A stretch of DNA of 64,000 bases from Gluconobacter sp. Dm-62. Its GTDB lineage: Bacteria > Pseudomonadota > Alphaproteobacteria > Acetobacterales > Acetobacteraceae. The stretch spans positions 62,001 through 126,000 of the forward strand of contig NZ_JAERLY010000003.1 in assembly GCF_018256155.1 (NCBI RefSeq). Direction: 5' to 3'. Positions 48,814 through 58,172 of the stretch are shown in pieces. Position 1 is the first letter of the stretch. Each line of letters starts with the position of its first letter. The notes beneath the pieces were generated by a model. The model was not told where the DNA came from. It searched no databases and was given only the letters and a program-made list of their open reading frames with translations. The translations under genes were made by a program, and so were the position numbers.

Positions 48814-50232
48814 ATGCTGCTGCGTAAGGTCCGCTGTTTCGGGCCGCTCCTGAAACGGCGCCTGCGCTGGCCGATCCGTTCGGCCGGGCTGAATTTCGCG
48901 CTGGCCTATGGGCTGGTGTTCGTGATCTCGGCCGGGGCGTTCCTGTCCTTCATCTGGTGGAATACGACAGGCCAGCTCGACCATCAGGTCGAGGTCGCGG
49001 TGCAGGTCGATGCCCTTGATCTGTCCCATCGCTGGGCGCAGGGGGGACCATCTGCGCTCAGCCTCGCCATTCAGGACCGGCTGGACCAGAACGTCGATGA
49101 TGACGAACTGTATCTCCTGGTAGGCCCGGATGGTCGCAAATTCGCCGGAAACCTGCCCGGCTGGCCCGTCGTCATCACCCGGACGGACGAGTTCTACGAA
49201 CTGGCCATCAAGCGCGACGGCTTCCGCACCAACGCCAAAATGCACGCCTACCCCCTGACGCAGGGATTCCGGATGATCGTCGGGCGCGATGTCCGTGGGC
49301 GACAGCTCGTTCGCCACGTCTTGACCGATACGCTGATCTGGGCCTGGATCATGGTCTCGCTGCTGGCGGCGGGCGGGGCGCTCGCCATCCGGCGCATCTT
49401 CCGGCAGGTCGTCCGCTCCATCGCCCGCACCACAGCGGCCGTAGCGCAGGGCGATCTGAGCCAGCGTATTCCGCTGACCGGCAATGAAACCGATCTGGTG
49501 GGCCAGACCGTCAATACCATGCTCGAGCGGATCAACCGCCTGATGGATGGCGTCAAGCAGGTCTCCAACGCCATCGCCCACGACCTGCGCACGCCAATCG
49601 CCCGGGCCCGCGCGCGTCTGGAAGATGCCAACCGCACCGCTACGTCCGCCGAGGAACTTCACGCCGCCATCGACCGTGCGGTCATGGATCTCGACCGGGT
49701 GACGTCGATTTTCGAGGCCCTGCTGAGAATCGCCCAGCTTGAAGCCGGGGCCAGACGGGCCGCCTTCACGGTTCTGGACATGCGCCCGCTGCTGGAAGGG
49801 CTGAGCGAGCTCTACGAGGCCTCCGTCGAGGATGCTGGCCTGCAACTGGACTTCAGGGCAGGGGCGGTCCAGCCGGTCAATGGCGATCCGCATTTGCTGC
49901 AACAGGCCGTGGCCAATCTGCTGGACAACGCCATCAAGTTCGCCCCCCCCGGAACCACCATTACCCTCTCGGTCGGAATGGAGGGCGAACGTCTGGCCAT
50001 CACCGTCGCGGATCAGGGCCCCGGCATGAGCGAGGACGATCTGAGCCGGGCTTCAGAGCGCTTTTTCCGTGCCGAGACGGCCCGCAACACGCCGGGTGCC
50101 GGGCTGGGTCTTTCGCTGGTTCAGGCCGTGATGAGCCTGCATGGCGGTTCGCTGGAACTGAAAGCCGGGCAGCCGGGCCTGTTCGCGACGCTCCTGCTGC
50201 CGGTCGTGCCTGCTGTTTCACGAAAGGGATGA
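48814..50232 (+). CDS. sensor histidine kinase
   Basis: Partner of the OmpR-type regulator. A 472-residue inner-membrane kinase: two membrane segments (about 26-49 and 172-193) flank a periplasmic sensor of about 120 residues, then a HAMP linker, HisKA with phospho-His256 in NAIAHDLRTPIARA, and a HATPase domain with NLLDNAIKFAPPG and ADQGPGMSEDDL, GAGLGLSLVQAV. ATG 48814 is used; TTG 48808 is an alternative. Likely signal: envelope condition, because of the neighbouring protease. Confidence 0.92.
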   Translation: MLLRKVRCFGPLLKRRLRWPIRSAGLNFALAYGLVFVISAGAFLSFIWWNTTGQLDHQVEVAVQVDALDLSHRWAQGGPSALSLAIQDRLDQNVDDDELYLLVGPDGRKFAGNLPGWPVVITRTDEFYELAIKRDGFRTNAKMHAYPLTQGFRMIVGRDVRGRQLVRHVLTDTLIWAWIMVSLLAAGGALAIRRIFRQVVRSIARTTAAVAQGDLSQRIPLTGNETDLVGQTVNTMLERINRLMDGVKQVSNAIAHDLRTPIARARARLEDANRTATSAEELHAAIDRAVMDLDRVTSIFEALLRIAQLEAGARRAAFTVLDMRPLLEGLSELYEASVEDAGLQLDFRAGAVQPVNGDPHLLQQAVANLLDNAIKFAPPGTTITLSVGMEGERLAITVADQGPGMSEDDLSRASERFFRAETARNTPGAGLGLSLVQAVMSLHGGSLELKAGQPGLFATLLLPVVPAVSRKG

Positions 50233-50290
50233 CGGAAGTTTCATCCAGGCCCCACCCTGCGCTTAGCTGGAATGGGCTACAGAGTCCGTG

Positions 50291-50635
50291 ATGCGCTTCT
50301 CCCTGTCTTCACCGACCGTTCTTCCGGCCTTCTGTTTGCTCGGCTGTCTGGCCGCGGCGCCGGTCCTGCGCCCGGTGCAGCATTTGCCGCCGGGACATTC
50401 GGACGATGCCATTACGGTGACGTCAGAGAACGCGGAATACTGCGCCCGACTGCGCAAAAATGTGGACACGCGACTGGCCGCTCCTCCCGCCGCCATCCCG
50501 CTGGGAACCATGGAAGACGCCCGTCACCTGCGCGCGCAGGGAGACCTGCTCTGCTCGCAGGGGCATGTCCGCGCGGGGATCGAACGCCTGCGCCGGGCGT
50601 TGGTCCTGCTGAAACACGCTCCGGAACCGCGCTGA
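50291..50635 (+). CDS. secreted protein of unknown function
   Basis: A 114-residue product with a signal peptide (MRFSLSSPTVLPAFCLL, cleavage perhaps near GCLAAAP). The mature part has two cysteines (NAEYCARLRKN and GDLLCSQGHV) likely to form a disulfide, plus LRAQGDLLCSQGHVRAGIERLRRAL, a TPR-like helix pair. A GTG at 50288 would add one residue. It lies 58 bases after the kinase and 44 bases before the SIMPL gene, probably one transcript. Confidence 0.65.
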   Translation: MRFSLSSPTVLPAFCLLGCLAAAPVLRPVQHLPPGHSDDAITVTSENAEYCARLRKNVDTRLAAPPAAIPLGTMEDARHLRAQGDLLCSQGHVRAGIERLRRALVLLKHAPEPR

Positions 50636-50679
50636 CCCTATTCCGGACGTCCCCCGACACCTGTTTTTCAGGAGATCCG

Positions 50680-51423
50680 ATGACCCGTTTTTCCCTGACC
50701 CGCTCCATGACGCGCTCTGGCCCGCTTCTGGCCGCCGCTCTGGTCCTTTCACCCGTTGCCCTGTCCGGCACGGGAGCCTTTTCCACCGCACAGGCAGCCG
50801 ACATGCAGCAGGATACGACGACCCAGCTTGATTTCAGCGTCATGGGAACCGCTCATGCGGTCCCAACGGAACTGACGGTCCGTCTCTCCGTCCGCTCCGA
50901 CAGCCCGTCCGCCGCAACGGCCCAGAAGGACGTGAACGCCCGGATGGCTGCTGCAATGAAACTGGCTGGCGGGCAGGATGGAATCGTGGCGAAGGCGGGG
51001 GGATATTCCATCTACGAAAATACGCCCGAACATGGCCCCAAGAGCTGGACGGTCCGGCAGGAGCTGGAACTCAGCGGGCAGGATTCCGTGCGGCTCCTGG
51101 GTCTGGCGGGGCAGCTTCAGTCGCAGTCCCTGATGATGGAAGGTCTCGACTGGTCTTTGGACGACGCCACTCGGGACCGGTTGCTGCAGGAAGCGCGGAC
51201 GGAAGCCCTGAAGAAAGTCCGGCCGCAGGCAGAACAGAGCGCACAGACTCTTGGTCTGCACCTCGCGCGCCTGAAAGAAATCCGGATTTCCTATCAGGAG
51301 CCTGGCCCGCGCCCCATGATGCTCATGGCAGCGCGCATGGCCGACTCCGCGCCGCCACAGCGCAGCCCGGACGAGCAGACCCTCCGTGTGAATGTCTCCG
51401 TGCAGGCTGAACTGTCGCCATGA
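50680..51423 (+). CDS. SIMPL-domain (DUF541) periplasmic protein
   Basis: A 247-residue exported protein: signal peptide (cleavage near AQAAD, about 39), then the SIMPL/DUF541 fold with DFSVMGTAHAVPTELTVRLSV, a central helical segment with multiple Met residues, and LRVNVSVQAEL at the C-terminus. Family members are linked to oxidative stress and cell-envelope functions, but no biochemistry is established. AGGAG stands four bases before the ATG. It overlaps no gene; the DCC protein begins 28 bases later. Confidence 0.88.
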   Translation: MTRFSLTRSMTRSGPLLAAALVLSPVALSGTGAFSTAQAADMQQDTTTQLDFSVMGTAHAVPTELTVRLSVRSDSPSAATAQKDVNARMAAAMKLAGGQDGIVAKAGGYSIYENTPEHGPKSWTVRQELELSGQDSVRLLGLAGQLQSQSLMMEGLDWSLDDATRDRLLQEARTEALKKVRPQAEQSAQTLGLHLARLKEIRISYQEPGPRPMMLMAARMADSAPPQRSPDEQTLRVNVSVQAELSP

Positions 51424-51451
51424 CGCGCTCTCTGCCGGGGCGTTGCCGGAC

Positions 51452-51799
51452 ATGGTGACGGTCTGGTTCGACGGGGGATGCCCATTATGTCGGCGTGAGA
51501 TCGCCCTGATGAGACGTCTTGATCGTCGCGGCGCCATTCGCTTCATCAATCTGGAAACGGCTCAGGCGTGTCCGCTGGATCGGGCCACCCTGCTGGCCCG
51601 GTTCCATGCTGAAGAGGACGGGCAGCTCTATGAAGGTGCTGCCGCATTCGCCGCTATGTGGCGGGCCATTCCCCTGCTGCGGCCGTTGGGTCTGGCCGCG
51701 CGGAATCCGGCTGTGCTGGCCGTACTGCAATGGGGGTACGGAAAATTCCTGCGGATGCGGCCTCTTTTGCAACGGCTGACCCGAAATCTGGAACGTTGA
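51452..51799 (+). CDS. DCC-family (DUF393) thiol-disulfide oxidoreductase-like protein
   Basis: A 115-residue protein starting MVTVWFDGGCPLCRREIALM, the DCC signature (DGxCPxCxxE) in a thioredoxin-like fold. The two cysteines are Cys10 and Cys13. The C-terminal half has a predicted helical segment ending WGYGKFLRMRPLLQRL. Role unknown; redox function is inferred from the CxxC. ATG 51452 is chosen over a start at 51392 inside the previous gene. Confidence 0.85.
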   Translation: MVTVWFDGGCPLCRREIALMRRLDRRGAIRFINLETAQACPLDRATLLARFHAEEDGQLYEGAAAFAAMWRAIPLLRPLGLAARNPAVLAVLQWGYGKFLRMRPLLQRLTRNLER

Positions 51800-51880
51800 G
51801 ACGCAGGTAGGGGCAAAAAAACGGAAGAATTTAAGGGTTTCTTAGGGAGCGTCCGCTACCACGGAAAAAAAGGAGCCTTC

Positions 51881-53395
51881 ATGCCCAACTCTTTCCGTTT
51901 GCTGGCGCAGGATATTCTCGCTCTTGCCGATGCGAATGACATCTCCGGCGCGATTGAAAAGCTGCATGAAGGTGTCCGGGACCTGCCTCAGGATGCTCAT
52001 TCCACGTTTCTGGCGGGATGTCTGTATGAACGTCTCAGGGACTGGGCACAGGCCCGACACTTTTATCTTCAAAGCCTGCATCTGGACGTCAATGCCCCGC
52101 GTATCTGGCACCGTCTGGGTATCGTGAGTCTCGAAAGCGGAGATCTGGACGGCGCGGAACGAGCCCTGAAGGTCGCGACCCAGCAGCAGCCTTCAAACGC
52201 CCATTACCACGTCGATCTCAGTATGGTTCTGGCCAGAAAGGGAGCGTTCGACATGGCTCTTGAGAGCGCCATGACCGGTGAGGCGCTTAGTCCCGATCAT
52301 GTGCCGGCTCTCAACAATATTGGTCATGTCCTTCAGGGCCTGGGGCGCAGTGCAGAATCGCTGCCATATTACGACCGGGCCATAAGCCTTGATCCTGAAA
52401 ATGGTGTCTGTCGTTTCGGGCGGGCCGTCAGTCTGCTGAAGATGGGCGATTTCGAGCCCGGATGGGGTGAATATGAGTGGCGGTGGCGGTGTTCCCAGAC
52501 ACCGCGTACAGATCTTGCCATCCCACAATGGGAAGGTGAGGATCTGCAGGGCAAGACCATTCTGATCCATCACGAGCAGGGCTATGGAGATACGCTTCAG
52601 TTCATTCGTCTCGCCCCCCTGCTCAAAATGCGTGGAGCTACAGTCGTAGTGCAGGTCCCCATTCCTCTTGTCCGCATTCTGGAGCGGGTTGAAGGAATCG
52701 ATCAGGTCGTCTCGACGCTCGACCCAGTGTTACATCTGGATGTGCACTGTCCGATGGTCGGCCTGCCACTGCGACTGAAAATAACGCCGACCACGGCGCC
52801 GGGCTGTCCATATCTGTCCGTTTCCACTGAAGAACAGGAGCGGCAGGGCGGAGCGCTGCGGCGGAGTCTGCTGGAAAACATGCAGCAGCCTGACCTGATT
52901 GTCGGTCTGGTCTGGAGTGGAGATCCACGGCCCCATGACCCTGTTGCTACTCAGGTGGATCGACGCCGGAGTGTGAAGCTGGAAAAGCTCGCACCTCTGA
53001 TGGATGTGGACGGTATTCGGTTCGTCAGCTTCCAGCTTGGCATGCCTCGACATCAGATTGCCGAGACAGGATTACCGGTGATCGAAGTGACGGACGGAAT
53101 CGTGGATTTCGCCGATACGGCCGCACGACTGTATGGCGTGGACCTGTTGATCAGCGTTGATACGTCCATGGTTCATCTGGCGGGAGGGCTTGGTCTGCCG
53201 GTCTGGATGCTCTCGCGTTACGATGCCTGCTGGCGTTGGGGAGAAAACGGTACGACGACTCCCTGGTATCCGAGTATGCGGATTTTCCGTCAGTCGGGTC
53301 TGGGAGACTGGGACACCCCGGTCGCCGAGATCGCGGGTATGCTGAGGCAGTTTGTAGCTCTTTACCGGGCAAACCTTGAAGCTGAAGCGGCCTGA
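51881..53395 (+). CDS. TPR-repeat protein with GT9-like glycosyltransferase domain
   Basis: A 504-residue protein. Residues 1-195 contain about five tetratricopeptide repeats (for example WHRLGIVSLESGDLDGAERAL and NNIGHVLQGLGRSAESLPYYDRA). The rest is a GT-B fold like the ADP-heptose transferase family: ILIHHEQGYGDTLQFIRLAPL, VGLVWSGDP, LLISVDTSMVHLAGGLGLPVWML. This architecture is common in alphaproteobacteria, where it is thought to glycosylate flagellin or cell-surface components. The acceptor is unknown. A bidirectional terminator separates it from infC. Confidence 0.85.
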   Translation: MPNSFRLLAQDILALADANDISGAIEKLHEGVRDLPQDAHSTFLAGCLYERLRDWAQARHFYLQSLHLDVNAPRIWHRLGIVSLESGDLDGAERALKVATQQQPSNAHYHVDLSMVLARKGAFDMALESAMTGEALSPDHVPALNNIGHVLQGLGRSAESLPYYDRAISLDPENGVCRFGRAVSLLKMGDFEPGWGEYEWRWRCSQTPRTDLAIPQWEGEDLQGKTILIHHEQGYGDTLQFIRLAPLLKMRGATVVVQVPIPLVRILERVEGIDQVVSTLDPVLHLDVHCPMVGLPLRLKITPTTAPGCPYLSVSTEEQERQGGALRRSLLENMQQPDLIVGLVWSGDPRPHDPVATQVDRRRSVKLEKLAPLMDVDGIRFVSFQLGMPRHQIAETGLPVIEVTDGIVDFADTAARLYGVDLLISVDTSMVHLAGGLGLPVWMLSRYDACWRWGENGTTTPWYPSMRIFRQSGLGDWDTPVAEIAGMLRQFVALYRANLEAEAA

Positions 53396-53410
53396 GGCAC
53401 AAGCCATAAA

Positions 53411-53450
53411 AAAAACCGGCCGCTTCCCGAAAAGGGGGCGGCCGGTTTTT
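53411..53450. terminator. bidirectional terminator between TPR gene and infC
   Basis: AAAAACCGGCCGC (53411-53423) matches GCGGCCGGTTTTT (53438-53450) exactly, 13 bp, with A/T runs at both ends. It ends both convergent transcripts. Confidence 0.9.
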
Positions 53451-53473
53451 CAGGTGCAAGATGAAAGCACCCC

Positions 53474-54010
53474 TTAGCGGGGAGCAATCACCATCAGCAT
53501 CTGGCGGTTTTCAAGGCGGGGCATCTGCTCCACCTTCGCCTTTTCTTCGACTTCCTGTCGGATACGCTCAAGCATCTTGATACCGAGCTCCTGATGGGCC
53601 ATTTCGCGGCCCTTGAAGCGCAGGGAAATCTTGACCTTGTCGCCTTCGTCAAGAAAGCTGTGAATGGCCTTGAGCTTGGTCTGGAAGTCATGCTCGCCCG
53701 TACCGGGACGAACCTTCACTTCCTTGATCTCAATGACCTTCTGCTTCTTGCGGGCTTCGTTCTTCTTCTTCTGCTGCTCATACTTGAACTTGCCGTAGTC
53801 GAGAATCTTCACGACAGGAGGAACAGCGGTCGGGCTGATTTCCAGAAGGTCGAGACCTACCGAAAAAGCGCGCATCAGGGCATCCCGGGTCGTCATGACG
53901 CCCTGCATTTCGCCTTCTTCGTCAATCAGACGAACCTGCGGAACACGGATTTCCTCGTTGACGCGCGGTCCTTCACGGGTTGGCGCGGCCTGCATCGGCG
54001 GTCTAGCTAT
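53474..54010 (-). CDS. infC: translation initiation factor IF-3, probable ATA start
   Basis: Controls start-codon selection and 30S recycling. The product has the IF-3 N-domain ([21 protein letters not shown]), linker helix ([15 protein letters not shown]) and C-domain ([19 protein letters not shown]). The first in-frame ATG (53995) has no ribosome site. Five codons upstream is ATA (54008-54010), six bases after a clean AGGAG, and the added residues ARPP belong to the family N-terminus; a stop is four codons further up. ATA is therefore the likely initiator, as rare start codons are used for IF-3 autoregulation elsewhere. rpmI and rplT are not next to it. Confidence 0.9.
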
Positions 54011-54148
54011 GGTCAGCTCCTGTCATCAGTTTCGTTCGGGTCCGGCACTCTGTATCCGCCTTCATGAAGAAAGGCGGGATACGGCCATTTCCGATCCCGG
54101 TCCTTCTGCACATAGTCCTGCCTTACGCCCGGTGCAAGGGGATTACGT

Positions 54149-56086
54149 TCAATCCTTTGCAGCACGTGCGATGTCAGGGGCCTGAGCTTCCTTCGTGAGA
54201 GCCGAAACGGCCTCGTCGAGGGACAGGATCTCCTGTGCTGCGCCGCCCAGACGCCGCATGGCAACCTTGCGCTCCTCGGCTTCACGACGACCCAGCACAA
54301 GGATGACCGGAACGCGTGCCAGGCTGTGTTCGCGGATCTTGGCGTTAATCTTGTCGCTGCGGATGTCGGTCTCGACCTGGAGTCCCGCGGCCTTGAGTGT
54401 CGCGGCCACTTCGTTGGCGTAATCGCCGGCATCGGAGACGATGGACGCCACGACAACCTGCGTCGGCGCCAGCCAGAGCGGGAACTTGCCGGCATACTGC
54501 TCGATCAGGATGCCGATGAAGCGCTCGAAACTGCCAAGAATCGCGCGGTGCAGCATGACCGGGCGATGACGGTTGCTGTCCTCACCGATATAGGACGCAT
54601 CCAGACGTTCCGGCAGAACGTAATCCACCTGAAGCGTGCCGCACTGCCAGTCACGGCCGATGGCATCGGTCAGCACGAATTCGAGCTTCGGACCGTAGAA
54701 CGCGCCTTCGCCCGGATTGTACTCGTATTCGACGCCCGCGATCTCGCAGGCCTTCTTGAGCGAACCTTCCGCCCGGTCCCAGACCTCATCCGAGCCCGCA
54801 CGCGTTTCCGGACGGTCGGAGAACTTCACGCGGAAACTCTCAAATCCGAGATCCGTGTAAACTTCGGCCAGCATCTTTACGAACTTCGCGGTTTCGTCTG
54901 CGATCTGCTCGTCCGTGCAGAAGATATGGGCGTCGTCCTGCGTGAAGCCGCGGACGCGCATGATGCCGTGCAGGGCACCAGACGGCTCGTAACGGTGACA
55001 CGCGCCGAACTCAGCCATCCGCAGCGGCAGCTCACGATAGGAGCGCAGGCCATGACGGAAGATCTGCACATGGCACGGGCAGTTCATCGGCTTGAGTGCG
55101 AGGGTCTTGTCCTCGTCCTCGACGGTCGCGATGAACATGTTCTCGCGATACTTGTCCCAGTGGCCAGAAGCTTCCCACAGAGCGCGGTCCACGAGCTGCG
55201 GGGTGCGGACTTCCTCGTAGTTGTTCCGCTCCTGCGCGCGACGCATGTAGTCCTGCAGGACTGTGTAGAGGCGCCAGCCCTTGCGGTGCCAGAAGATCTG
55301 GCCGACGGCTTCTTCCTGAATGTGGAAGAGGTCCATTTCGCGCCCGATGCGACGATGATCGCGCTTTTCGGCTTCCTCAAGGCGCAGGAGATGGGCGTCC
55401 AGCTCCTTCTTGTCGCGCCATGCGGTGCCGTAAATGCGGGTGAGCATGGGGTTGCGGTGATCGCCACGCCAGTAGGCCCCGGCCACGCGCATCAGCTTGA
55501 ACGCCGTGCCGACATCGCCGGTGGTGCGCAGATGCGGGCCACGACACAGGTCGAGCCACTCGCCCTGACGATAGATCGAGATCTGCTCGGTTTCCGGCAG
55601 GTCCTGAATGAGCTGTGCCTTGAAGTCCTCGCCCTTCTCCTCAAAGAAGCGGATGGCCTCGTCCCGGTCCCAGACCTCGCGGACGAACGGCGTGTTGGCC
55701 GCCACGATCTCGCGCATCTTCTCTTCGATGGCTGGGAAGTCTTCAGGCGTGAATGGCTTCTCGCGGGAGAAATCGTAGTAGAACCCGTCCTTGATGCTCG
55801 GCCCGATCGTGACCTGCGTTTCAGGCCACAGGGACTGCACGGCTTCGGCCAGAACATGCGCCGCGTCATGGCGGATCATTTCCAGCGCGTCCTCATCCTT
55901 GCGGGTGACGAACTTTACGGACGCGTCACTGCTGATTTCGGTGCTAATATCGACGGGGTTGCCGTCCACTTCCATCGCCATGGCGGCCTTGGCGAGACCT
56001 GGCCCGATGGAGGCCGCGATCGTCGTGCCCGTCACCGTCCCGTCGAATGTGCGGACGCTTCCGTCGGGGAGTGTGATGGCGGGCAT
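54149..56086 (-). CDS. thrS: threonyl-tRNA synthetase
   Basis: Charges tRNA-Thr. The 645-residue product has an N-terminal TGS domain (1-60), the zinc editing domain with HxxxH (His73 and His77 in [12 protein letters not shown]), and class II catalytic motifs, including [25 protein letters not shown]. The anticodon-binding C-terminal domain ([17 protein letters not shown]) is complete. It lies 138 bases before infC on the same strand; a hairpin (54051-54082) lies between. Confidence 0.97.
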
Positions 56087-56199
56087 GGAGATCGCTCCTG
56101 TGCGAGTGGGAACGGCAGATCGCTCTGCCGAAAAATGAACCGGTAAATGGCCTTAATCCCCGTCAGGCCGCAACCCCCAGACGGGCAGACGGACTGTTT

Positions 56200-57255
56200 T
56201 CAGGTCGCTTTGTCCATCCGAAGCACAAGAGGAGGGGCGTCCTGAGCAGCGGGCGCCCGCCCTTCGTCCCATCCGAGCGTGACATAATGGATGAGGGGCC
56301 AGATCCCGTAATAGGGGTCCTGCGTCACGTCCGGGTTGCTCCGGGCATAATACAGTGGATCGAAAAGCCGATATTCGTGCTGCTGCCCGTCATCGCGTGC
56401 CCGATGCGCCACAAAGCCGGACGGGATGCTGAGGGGAGGGTGCGGAACGCTTTCGCCGGTGCCCAGCAGGATGTCCGGATCGACGCCCAGATCCCGGAAG
56501 CGCTGCGCGATCATGGGCGCATACAGATCCGGCGTCAGGCTGTAGCTGGCGAGGAAGTCCTGATAGCTGGCGTTGAAATAATAATGCAGATGTGTGCCGT
56601 CTTTGGGGTGTTCCGGTTGTGCGCCGGTGTCCGTGGCGGCCAGTTTCTGGTGGGCGAAACGACGGATGTCTTCGTAGTCCGGCCGGTTGTGCAGATGCAG
56701 ATACACGAAAGGCGTGCGGACATAACGGTTGGGGTAAATGCTCTGCGGATTGTGAAATCCGCGGTCCAGACTGACGATCGTCTGTGCCTTGAACAGACCG
56801 CGCCGGACGATCTGGGGTCGGTAATAATCCGGCGCTTCCGGTACGTTCAGCAGCAGGCGTTCGGTGATGAAAGTCGCATTTTCCTGCATCAGATAGTCGA
56901 ACTGCCGCCGGATGACCTCAGGGTCGAGCGAAAGCTGGTCCAGAAAAACCGTCAGGAACTCGTCACAATCCAGCGGGACGGCAAAATCGCAGGCATTTTC
57001 CGCATCCCACTGGCGGATAATGCCCGCGATGACGTCGCCCTTGTGCAGGAAATCATTGTGCGACGCATGATTGCGGACGATCCGCACGCCTTTTTTTTCA
57101 TACCGGGTCTGGATGTCCAGAACGGCGGGATCGGTCGAGCCGTTGTCGATCACCGTCAGGTTTGAGAAGCCGAAAATCGCCGCGTGCCACAGAACCCACG
57201 GCTCCAGCAGGGTCGCCTCGTTCTTCTGCATCATGACGCAACGGATTTGGGTCAT
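56200..57255 (-). CDS. family 2/92-like glycosyltransferase
   Basis: A 351-residue cytoplasmic glycosyltransferase with the alpha/beta GT-A core: MMQKNEATLLEPWVLWHAAIFGF, VIDNGSTDPAV, and the acidic metal site DFAVPLDCDEFLTVF. The substrate is unknown. The C-terminal part is different from common GT2 proteins and contains YLHLHNRPDYEDIRRF with many His residues. It overlaps the GT9-like gene by four bases (ATGA), so the two form an operon. Confidence 0.82.
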   Translation of the reverse strand: MTQIRCVMMQKNEATLLEPWVLWHAAIFGFSNLTVIDNGSTDPAVLDIQTRYEKKGVRIVRNHASHNDFLHKGDVIAGIIRQWDAENACDFAVPLDCDEFLTVFLDQLSLDPEVIRRQFDYLMQENATFITERLLLNVPEAPDYYRPQIVRRGLFKAQTIVSLDRGFHNPQSIYPNRYVRTPFVYLHLHNRPDYEDIRRFAHQKLAATDTGAQPEHPKDGTHLHYYFNASYQDFLASYSLTPDLYAPMIAQRFRDLGVDPDILLGTGESVPHPPLSIPSGFVAHRARDDGQQHEYRLFDPLYYARSNPDVTQDPYYGIWPLIHYVTLGWDEGRAPAAQDAPPLVLRMDKAT

Positions 57256-58172
57256 CGGGTAAGCATGGCCTCGATGCAGGTCTCGACCCGGGACGCGGGC
57301 AGCATCGCCAGATCGGGCACCACGATCAGATCCGTTCGTCCGGCCGTGGGCGTGAGGGGGGCTGTCAGGCGCGGATCGCTGTCCGGGCCGAAAAGTGTGA
57401 GGCAGGGTGTGTCCATTGCGGCGGCGAGATGCATCGGGCCGGTGTCGTTGCCTATCACAAGTGTTGCGCGGTCGAGGACGCCTGCCAGTTCCACCATGGT
57501 GGTCTGGCCCGTTAAATCGAGGGCCGTTGGGCAGGCGTGCAGGATGTTCTGGGCCAGAGGCGCTTCGGCCTGCGTTCCCACGATGACCGGGCGGATGCCT
57601 TTGGCCACGAGGGCCTTGGCGATCTCGGCAAAGCGCGACGAAGGCCAGCGTTTCTGCGGGCGGTGGAACGCCGCACCCGGCACCAGAACGGCATAGGGCG
57701 TCGCAATTTCAGGCCCGTGCCCTTCAAGCCAGTGCGGAACGCTGCGGGGCAGGGGCGTGACCCCGGCGTCATGAAGCTGATCGTCCAGCCGGGCCAGCGT
57801 GTGCATGGCGTTGCGCGAGGGATTGCCGTGTGGATGGCAGCAGCCGTCGGAAATGCCGGACCAGTTCGCGGGCTGTCCGGCGAGACGGAAATAGGTTTTC
57901 GAACGCCCCGAGGTCTGAAGATCGAAAACCCGGTCATAGCCGCGCAGTTTTCGCGACAGGCGCCACAGCCCCGGCAGATTGCCCATCGAGGGGCGATCAT
58001 CCGTCAGGATTTCGTCGAACCACGGCGCAGCGCGCGCCAGATCCACGAAGGGTGCGGTTGTCAGAAGGGTCAGTGTGGTGTGTGGAAACGCGGCCCGGAT
58101 AGACGCGAAAGCTCCGAATGCCTGAACGAAATCGCCCAGGGCGCCGAGCTTTATGACAAGAATGCGACTCAT
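57252..58172 (-). CDS. ADP-heptose:LPS heptosyltransferase-like (GT9)
   Basis: A 306-residue GT-B protein starting MSRILVIKLGALGDFVQAFGAF, the classical N-terminal motif of LPS heptosyltransferases, with YAVLVPGAAFHRPQKRWPS and VIGNDTGPMHLAAAMDTPCLTLFGP at the donor side. Likely acts in lipopolysaccharide core assembly, but the sugar is not certain because no heptose genes are visible here. It overlaps the GT2/92-like gene. Confidence 0.88.
   Translation of the reverse strand: MSRILVIKLGALGDFVQAFGAFASIRAAFPHTTLTLLTTAPFVDLARAAPWFDEILTDDRPSMGNLPGLWRLSRKLRGYDRVFDLQTSGRSKTYFRLAGQPANWSGISDGCCHPHGNPSRNAMHTLARLDDQLHDAGVTPLPRSVPHWLEGHGPEIATPYAVLVPGAAFHRPQKRWPSSRFAEIAKALVAKGIRPVIVGTQAEAPLAQNILHACPTALDLTGQTTMVELAGVLDRATLVIGNDTGPMHLAAAMDTPCLTLFGPDSDPRLTAPLTPTAGRTDLIVVPDLAMLPASRVETCIEAMLTR

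Follow-up and report, generated by a model that had tools for sequence, protein, structure and literature searches.

A putative AUA start codon of infC in Gluconobacter and its conservation across the Acetobacteraceae

The infC gene of Gluconobacter sp. Dm-62, which encodes initiation factor IF3, almost certainly starts at an AUA codon located at 54010-54008 on the minus strand of the window, the 64,000-nucleotide stretch of DNA analysed here. Considered as a whole, an AUA start combined with autoregulation of infC by IF3 is likely to be the best explanation of the findings described below. The original prediction of an ATA start was supported by conservation of the codon in relatives, by the spacing of the Shine-Dalgarno (SD) sequence and by the lack of a canonical start in some of these relatives.

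The infC start region and its surroundings

The coding region of infC from ATA to the stop codon occupies 53474..54010 (minus strand, stop codon at 53476-53474), as delimited by the reading frame and by IF3 domain, family and structure matches. Read from the ATA, the product comprises 178 residues, the first of which is expected to be fMet. The encoded protein is an ordinary IF3: it carries the Pfam domains IF3_N and IF3_C, scores 234.6 bits against the NCBIfam model infC TIGR00168 (cut-off 60) and also matches solved IF3 chains.

On the minus strand, the predicted arrangement proved exact to the base, with AGGAG at 54021-54017, a spacer of six nucleotides (CTGACC, 54016-54011) and ATA at 54010-54008. 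The in-frame TGA expected 12 bases above the ATA was also present (54025-54023, minus strand) and bounds the N terminus. Five extra codons, ATA GCT AGA CCG CCG, are read in frame ahead of an ATG at 53995-53993 (minus strand), which forms codon 6 of infC. This ATG, the first in-frame canonical codon, is the one that any caller restricted to ATG/GTG/TTG would pick; as had been claimed, it lacks a purine-rich site and lies 21 bases from AGGAG, and it is probably an internal codon of infC. A CTG two codons above the ATA (54016-54014) was rejected as a start, as it abuts AGGAG and is too near to it, and it is lost in relatives. The SD-ATA motif alone provides no evidence, because AGGAG-N5..8-ATA is about as frequent in the window as shuffled sequence would lead one to expect (one occurrence versus 1.5). 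The longer motif ACAGGAGNNGACCATA occurred once in the 3.46-Mb genome, at the infC start, and a control pattern did not occur.

The upstream neighbour is thrS (54149..56086, minus strand), recognized by its frame and the domains tRNA-synt_2b, tRNA_SAD, HGTP_anticodon and TGS, which is separated from the infC ATA by 138 nt and lies on the same strand. Behind infC, a GC-rich terminator-like hairpin with a 9-bp stem, a 14-nt loop and a T run was read from the sequence at 53408..53446 (minus strand); it is missing from the hairpin scan, the loop limit of which was 8. The corresponding cluster of E. coli has the order thrS-infC-rpmI-rplT. This order was not found here, infC being followed by the hairpin instead of rpmI-rplT. 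The sole rplT match in the genome is located on contig C7, adjoined by ORFs which we take from their sequences to be rpmI-like and pheS-like, and infC on contig C33. Since infC lies away from rpmI-rplT, a loop exerted by IF3 could differ in its reach from that of E. coli.

The spacer between thrS and infC contains a hairpin at 54052-54082 (minus strand), GTATCCCGCC...GGCGGATAC, without a T run. A structured leader acting as regulator was rejected, as the spacer together with the first codons folds like its shuffles (z -0.18). A permissive Rfam scan of 50000-58000 yielded no match in this spacer; its three matches were all under the gathering scores and all within 53344-53484. No match to a sigma-70-type promoter was obtained within 53380-54400, where a promoter is still possible.

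Concerning the decoding of AUA, the genome contains a TilS-type lysidine synthetase as well as four tRNA genes with a CAU anticodon, counted among the 30 of 48 genome tRNA matches scanned. Two of these are identical and have an initiator-like C1-A72 mismatch, and one of the other two resembles an Ile tRNA; we assume these types from the features we associate with each tRNA. Within 84 roughly called genes of the genome, ATA represents 87 of 1098 Ile codons. Reassignment of AUA to Met is thus unlikely, in view of the TilS-type enzyme, the CAU tRNAs and the use of ATA inside genes. AUA inside genes is, given TilS and these tRNAs, most likely read as Ile; at the start, it would be the initiator tRNA that decodes the codon.

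Start codon and flanking sequence in the Acetobacteraceae

Matches to infC were obtained in 26/26 genomes of the genus and in 141 of 150 genomes drawn from the family, together 164 distinct genomes. The 113 genomes examined comprise all 26 genus members, another 27 for which loci were returned and 60 that were fetched, mostly one per genus; 51 further matched genomes and the nine without an infC match were left out. Comparison of the infC starts across the family bore out the expectation of a conserved ATA: the codon at the aligned start place was ATA in 107 of the 113 genomes, ATC in three and CTG in three, and ATG, GTG or TTG in none of them. Our first caller, which picks among near-cognate and canonical codons the one having the longest SD match, returned ATA in 103 genomes, CTG in five, ATC in four and TTG in one; four loci that it called at another codon (L047, L135, L156 and L179) have ATA at the aligned place and were counted as ATA. 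Two loci were dropped from the aligned-place counts, L124 due to a contig end and L078 due to an indel near the start. In the latter, a draft contig of Asaia astilbis, the infC frame is broken within the first codons, possibly through an error of assembly. Named loci formed a second, overlapping set (the best 80 of 577, of which 78 were readable), in which ATA was found in 74, ATC in two and CTG in two, with L115, called as ATC by the first caller, included in the 74.

CTG occupies the start place in L182, L184 and L191 and additionally in L112 and L121 (Roseomonas), with AGGAG kept 6 nt upstream; read from the sequence, these loci represent a change of the near-cognate start within the Acetobacteraceae. 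ATC was found in L144, L146, L150, L103 and L110. The last two, belonging to Plastoroseomonas, show the longer SD match AGGAGGT. Inside the infC gene bodies of the 113 genomes, ATA accounts for 26 of 1231 Ile codons (ATC 947, ATT 258); up to two of these 26 may represent the start codon, where the call fell too far upstream.

The 99 distinct start regions were compared with respect to their flanks. The distance between GGAG and the start is 6 nt in 81 of them, 7 nt in seven and 8 nt in nine; in two, GGAG was not found. Conservation is near zero above approximately -21, climbs at ACAGGAG and reaches high values over the ATA and the codons after it. A weakly conserved AAC patch was observed above the SD sequence at about -20 to -18 (A 72, A 68 and C 61 of 99). 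The conservation of codons 1-5 allows for synonymous changes, as is typical of coding sequence. Codon 6 is most commonly ATG (61/99) and is replaced in the remaining 38. Loss of AGGAG and of the ATA-ARPP segment in close relatives would have spoken against the predicted start; both are kept, and it is the rival ATG that is often missing. Moreover, 29 of the 113 genomes lack any ATG, GTG or TTG from the called start to the IF3 domain, and 14 have none even from the upstream in-frame stop to the IF3 domain; the same lack of a canonical start was seen in 21 of the 78 readable named loci (best 80 of 577), several Acetobacter species included. In relatives without a canonical codon, the start has to be either non-canonical or inside the IF3 domain.

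These data bear directly on the possibility that translation truly begins at ATG 53995, which would leave the ATA-ARPP segment as an untranslated leader. The position of this ATG as the first canonical codon in frame and the frequency with which the family carries ATG as codon 6 speak in favour of this reading, but the missing SD sequence ahead of it, the replacement of this codon in more than a third of the distinct relatives, the coding-like conservation of the five codons in front and the relatives devoid of any canonical start make it highly improbable. Somewhat less improbable, though still rather unlikely, is the use of two starts, in which AUA would give the main form and ATG a minor form shorter by five residues. 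The commonness of ATG at codon 6 would fit such an arrangement; no SD sequence precedes ATG 53995, however, and since many relatives have another codon in its place, a short form is not generally needed. We therefore favour AUA as the infC start, which likely defines the true IF3 N terminus for the whole family; callers bound to ATG/GTG/TTG would drop at least five residues.

Conservation around the ATA also includes single nucleotides. CC is present at -2/-1 of the start (54012-54011 in the window) in 94 and 84 of the 99 distinct start regions, respectively, and codon 3 (54004-54002, minus strand) ends in A in 91 of 99, being AGA in 72 and CGA in 15, so that Arg is encoded in 87/99 by these two codons, which make up just 64 of the 1832 Arg codons of the infC gene bodies and are thus rare there. 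A general habit of early codons was rejected as the reason for the A-ending Arg codon: in 84 roughly called genes of the source genome, a control with small numbers, AGA/CGA amounted to only 5/36 at positions 2-6 and to 2 of 9 Arg codons at codon 3 alone, versus 87/99 at codon 3 of infC.

Start codons of infC in other Pseudomonadota

Searches beyond the family matched infC in 182/190 genomes of the class and in 158/160 of the phylum. From these, 175 genomes outside the Acetobacteraceae were read (L194-L369, one of them twice), 110 from the class search and 65 more from the phylum search; the shares given below are not unbiased, because better-scoring matches were favoured. The caller used here takes the codon with the best SD match among seven near-cognate and canonical codons, without weighting the codons.

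Among the 121 other Alphaproteobacteria, the call was ATA in 69, ATC in 19, ATT in 12, TTG in four, GTG in two and ATG in one, and 14 were left uncalled. Counted by family, ATA was the only codon called in 57 of the 92 alphaproteobacterial families with a call. The 54 other Pseudomonadota gave ATC in 23, ATT and ATA in 13 each and GTG in one, with four uncalled. AUA, AUC or AUU was thus called in 100/121 and 49/54 genomes, respectively (149/175 together), and a canonical codon in 7/121 and 1/54. The single ATG call (L243) may be a wrong call, as an ATA with a shorter SD match is located five codons upstream. Considering all in-frame codons 3-9 nt past an SD match of at least 5 in the Alphaproteobacteria, ATA was the commonest (59 of 235), followed by GCC with 18. 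These findings suggest that the self-limiting AUU start of the E. coli type persists in another class mainly in the form of AUA; the natural AUA, AUC, AUU and CUG variants can accordingly be compared as feedback codons.

Probable autoregulation by IF3 and comparison with known systems

For the start at AUA, we infer that the codon is used in this cell, that fMet is incorporated there and that IF3 represses its use. The 30S subunit would pair with AGGAG by the ordinary Shine-Dalgarno route, the initiator tRNA would read AUA with a third-base mismatch, and the IF3 protein would begin with fMet-Ala-Arg-Pro-Pro. As IF3 rejects non-AUG starts, the IF3 level would tune infC translation inversely: high IF3 would lower and low IF3 would raise translation from the AUA, resulting in a self-correcting loop like that proceeding from AUU in E. 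coli. Given an AUA start, we consider such a feedback loop on infC likely by analogy.

Alternatively, AUA might be the start and merely hold IF3 synthesis low, with no useful feedback by IF3. AUA starts are indeed weak as such in reporters of Listeria (PMC13068326) and S. aureus (PMC13009471), but discrimination against near-cognate starts is described as a general property of IF3 (PMC5472188), and most of the genomes read retain a near-cognate start for IF3's own gene. We regard this alternative as unlikely and prefer the feedback loop.

More tentatively, AUA, as opposed to AUU or AUC, might be an infC start retained over long times by most families of the Alphaproteobacteria and be embedded in the Acetobacteraceae in a longer fixed element, ACAGGAG-N3-ACC-AUA-GCN-NGA. 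In this element, CC and the Arg codon 3 with its final A would contribute to the strength with which IF3 can reject the start, and the feedback point would be determined by the element as a whole rather than by the codon by itself; we consider this possible yet doubtful. The conserved flanks may act on the response to IF3, or just on ribosome access.

The mechanism of a near-cognate infC start is known already, as is AUA on infC in S. aureus (PMC13009471); the class-wide preference for AUA and the extra nucleotide conservation around the start in the Acetobacteraceae may be new. IF3 is reported to repress non-canonical starts, with infC starting at ATT in E. coli and at ATC in Streptomyces, where the gene is misannotated in most cases (PMC5472188). 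AUU has been reported for infC of E. coli and B. subtilis (PMC1805508), ATT was indicated by peptide data for Xanthomonas (PMC5559785), and in Yersinia peptides were mapped upstream of the annotated infC (PMC3091656). Listeria infC is described as starting with ATT, and a reporter of another Listeria gene gave the order ATG > ATA > ATT (PMC13068326). In S. aureus, the AUA start of infC was detected by retapamulin initiation profiling and the authors suggest autoregulation; the AUA/AUU sites tested there reached about 10% of AUG, and up to 30% for one gene (PMC13009471). Full-text searches of a partial literature collection returned no paper on AUA for infC in Alphaproteobacteria, and the main text of a Caulobacter ribosome-profiling paper, which gives other near-cognate starts for 0.25% of genes, does not name infC (PMC4117421).

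Like its E. coli counterpart, infC of Gluconobacter is an IF3 gene located below thrS with an SD-led AUN start that departs from AUG in the third base. It differs in carrying AUA instead of AUU and in standing alone before a terminator-like hairpin, with rplT on another contig. With S. aureus it shares both the gene and the AUA codon, although the phylum is distant and the start was profiled there, whereas the evidence presented here is comparative. A near-cognate infC start, frequently annotated wrongly at a canonical codon further downstream, is also shared with Streptomyces (ATC) and with Xanthomonas, Yersinia and Listeria (ATT), from all of which the Gluconobacter gene is set apart by the third base of the codon and by lineage.
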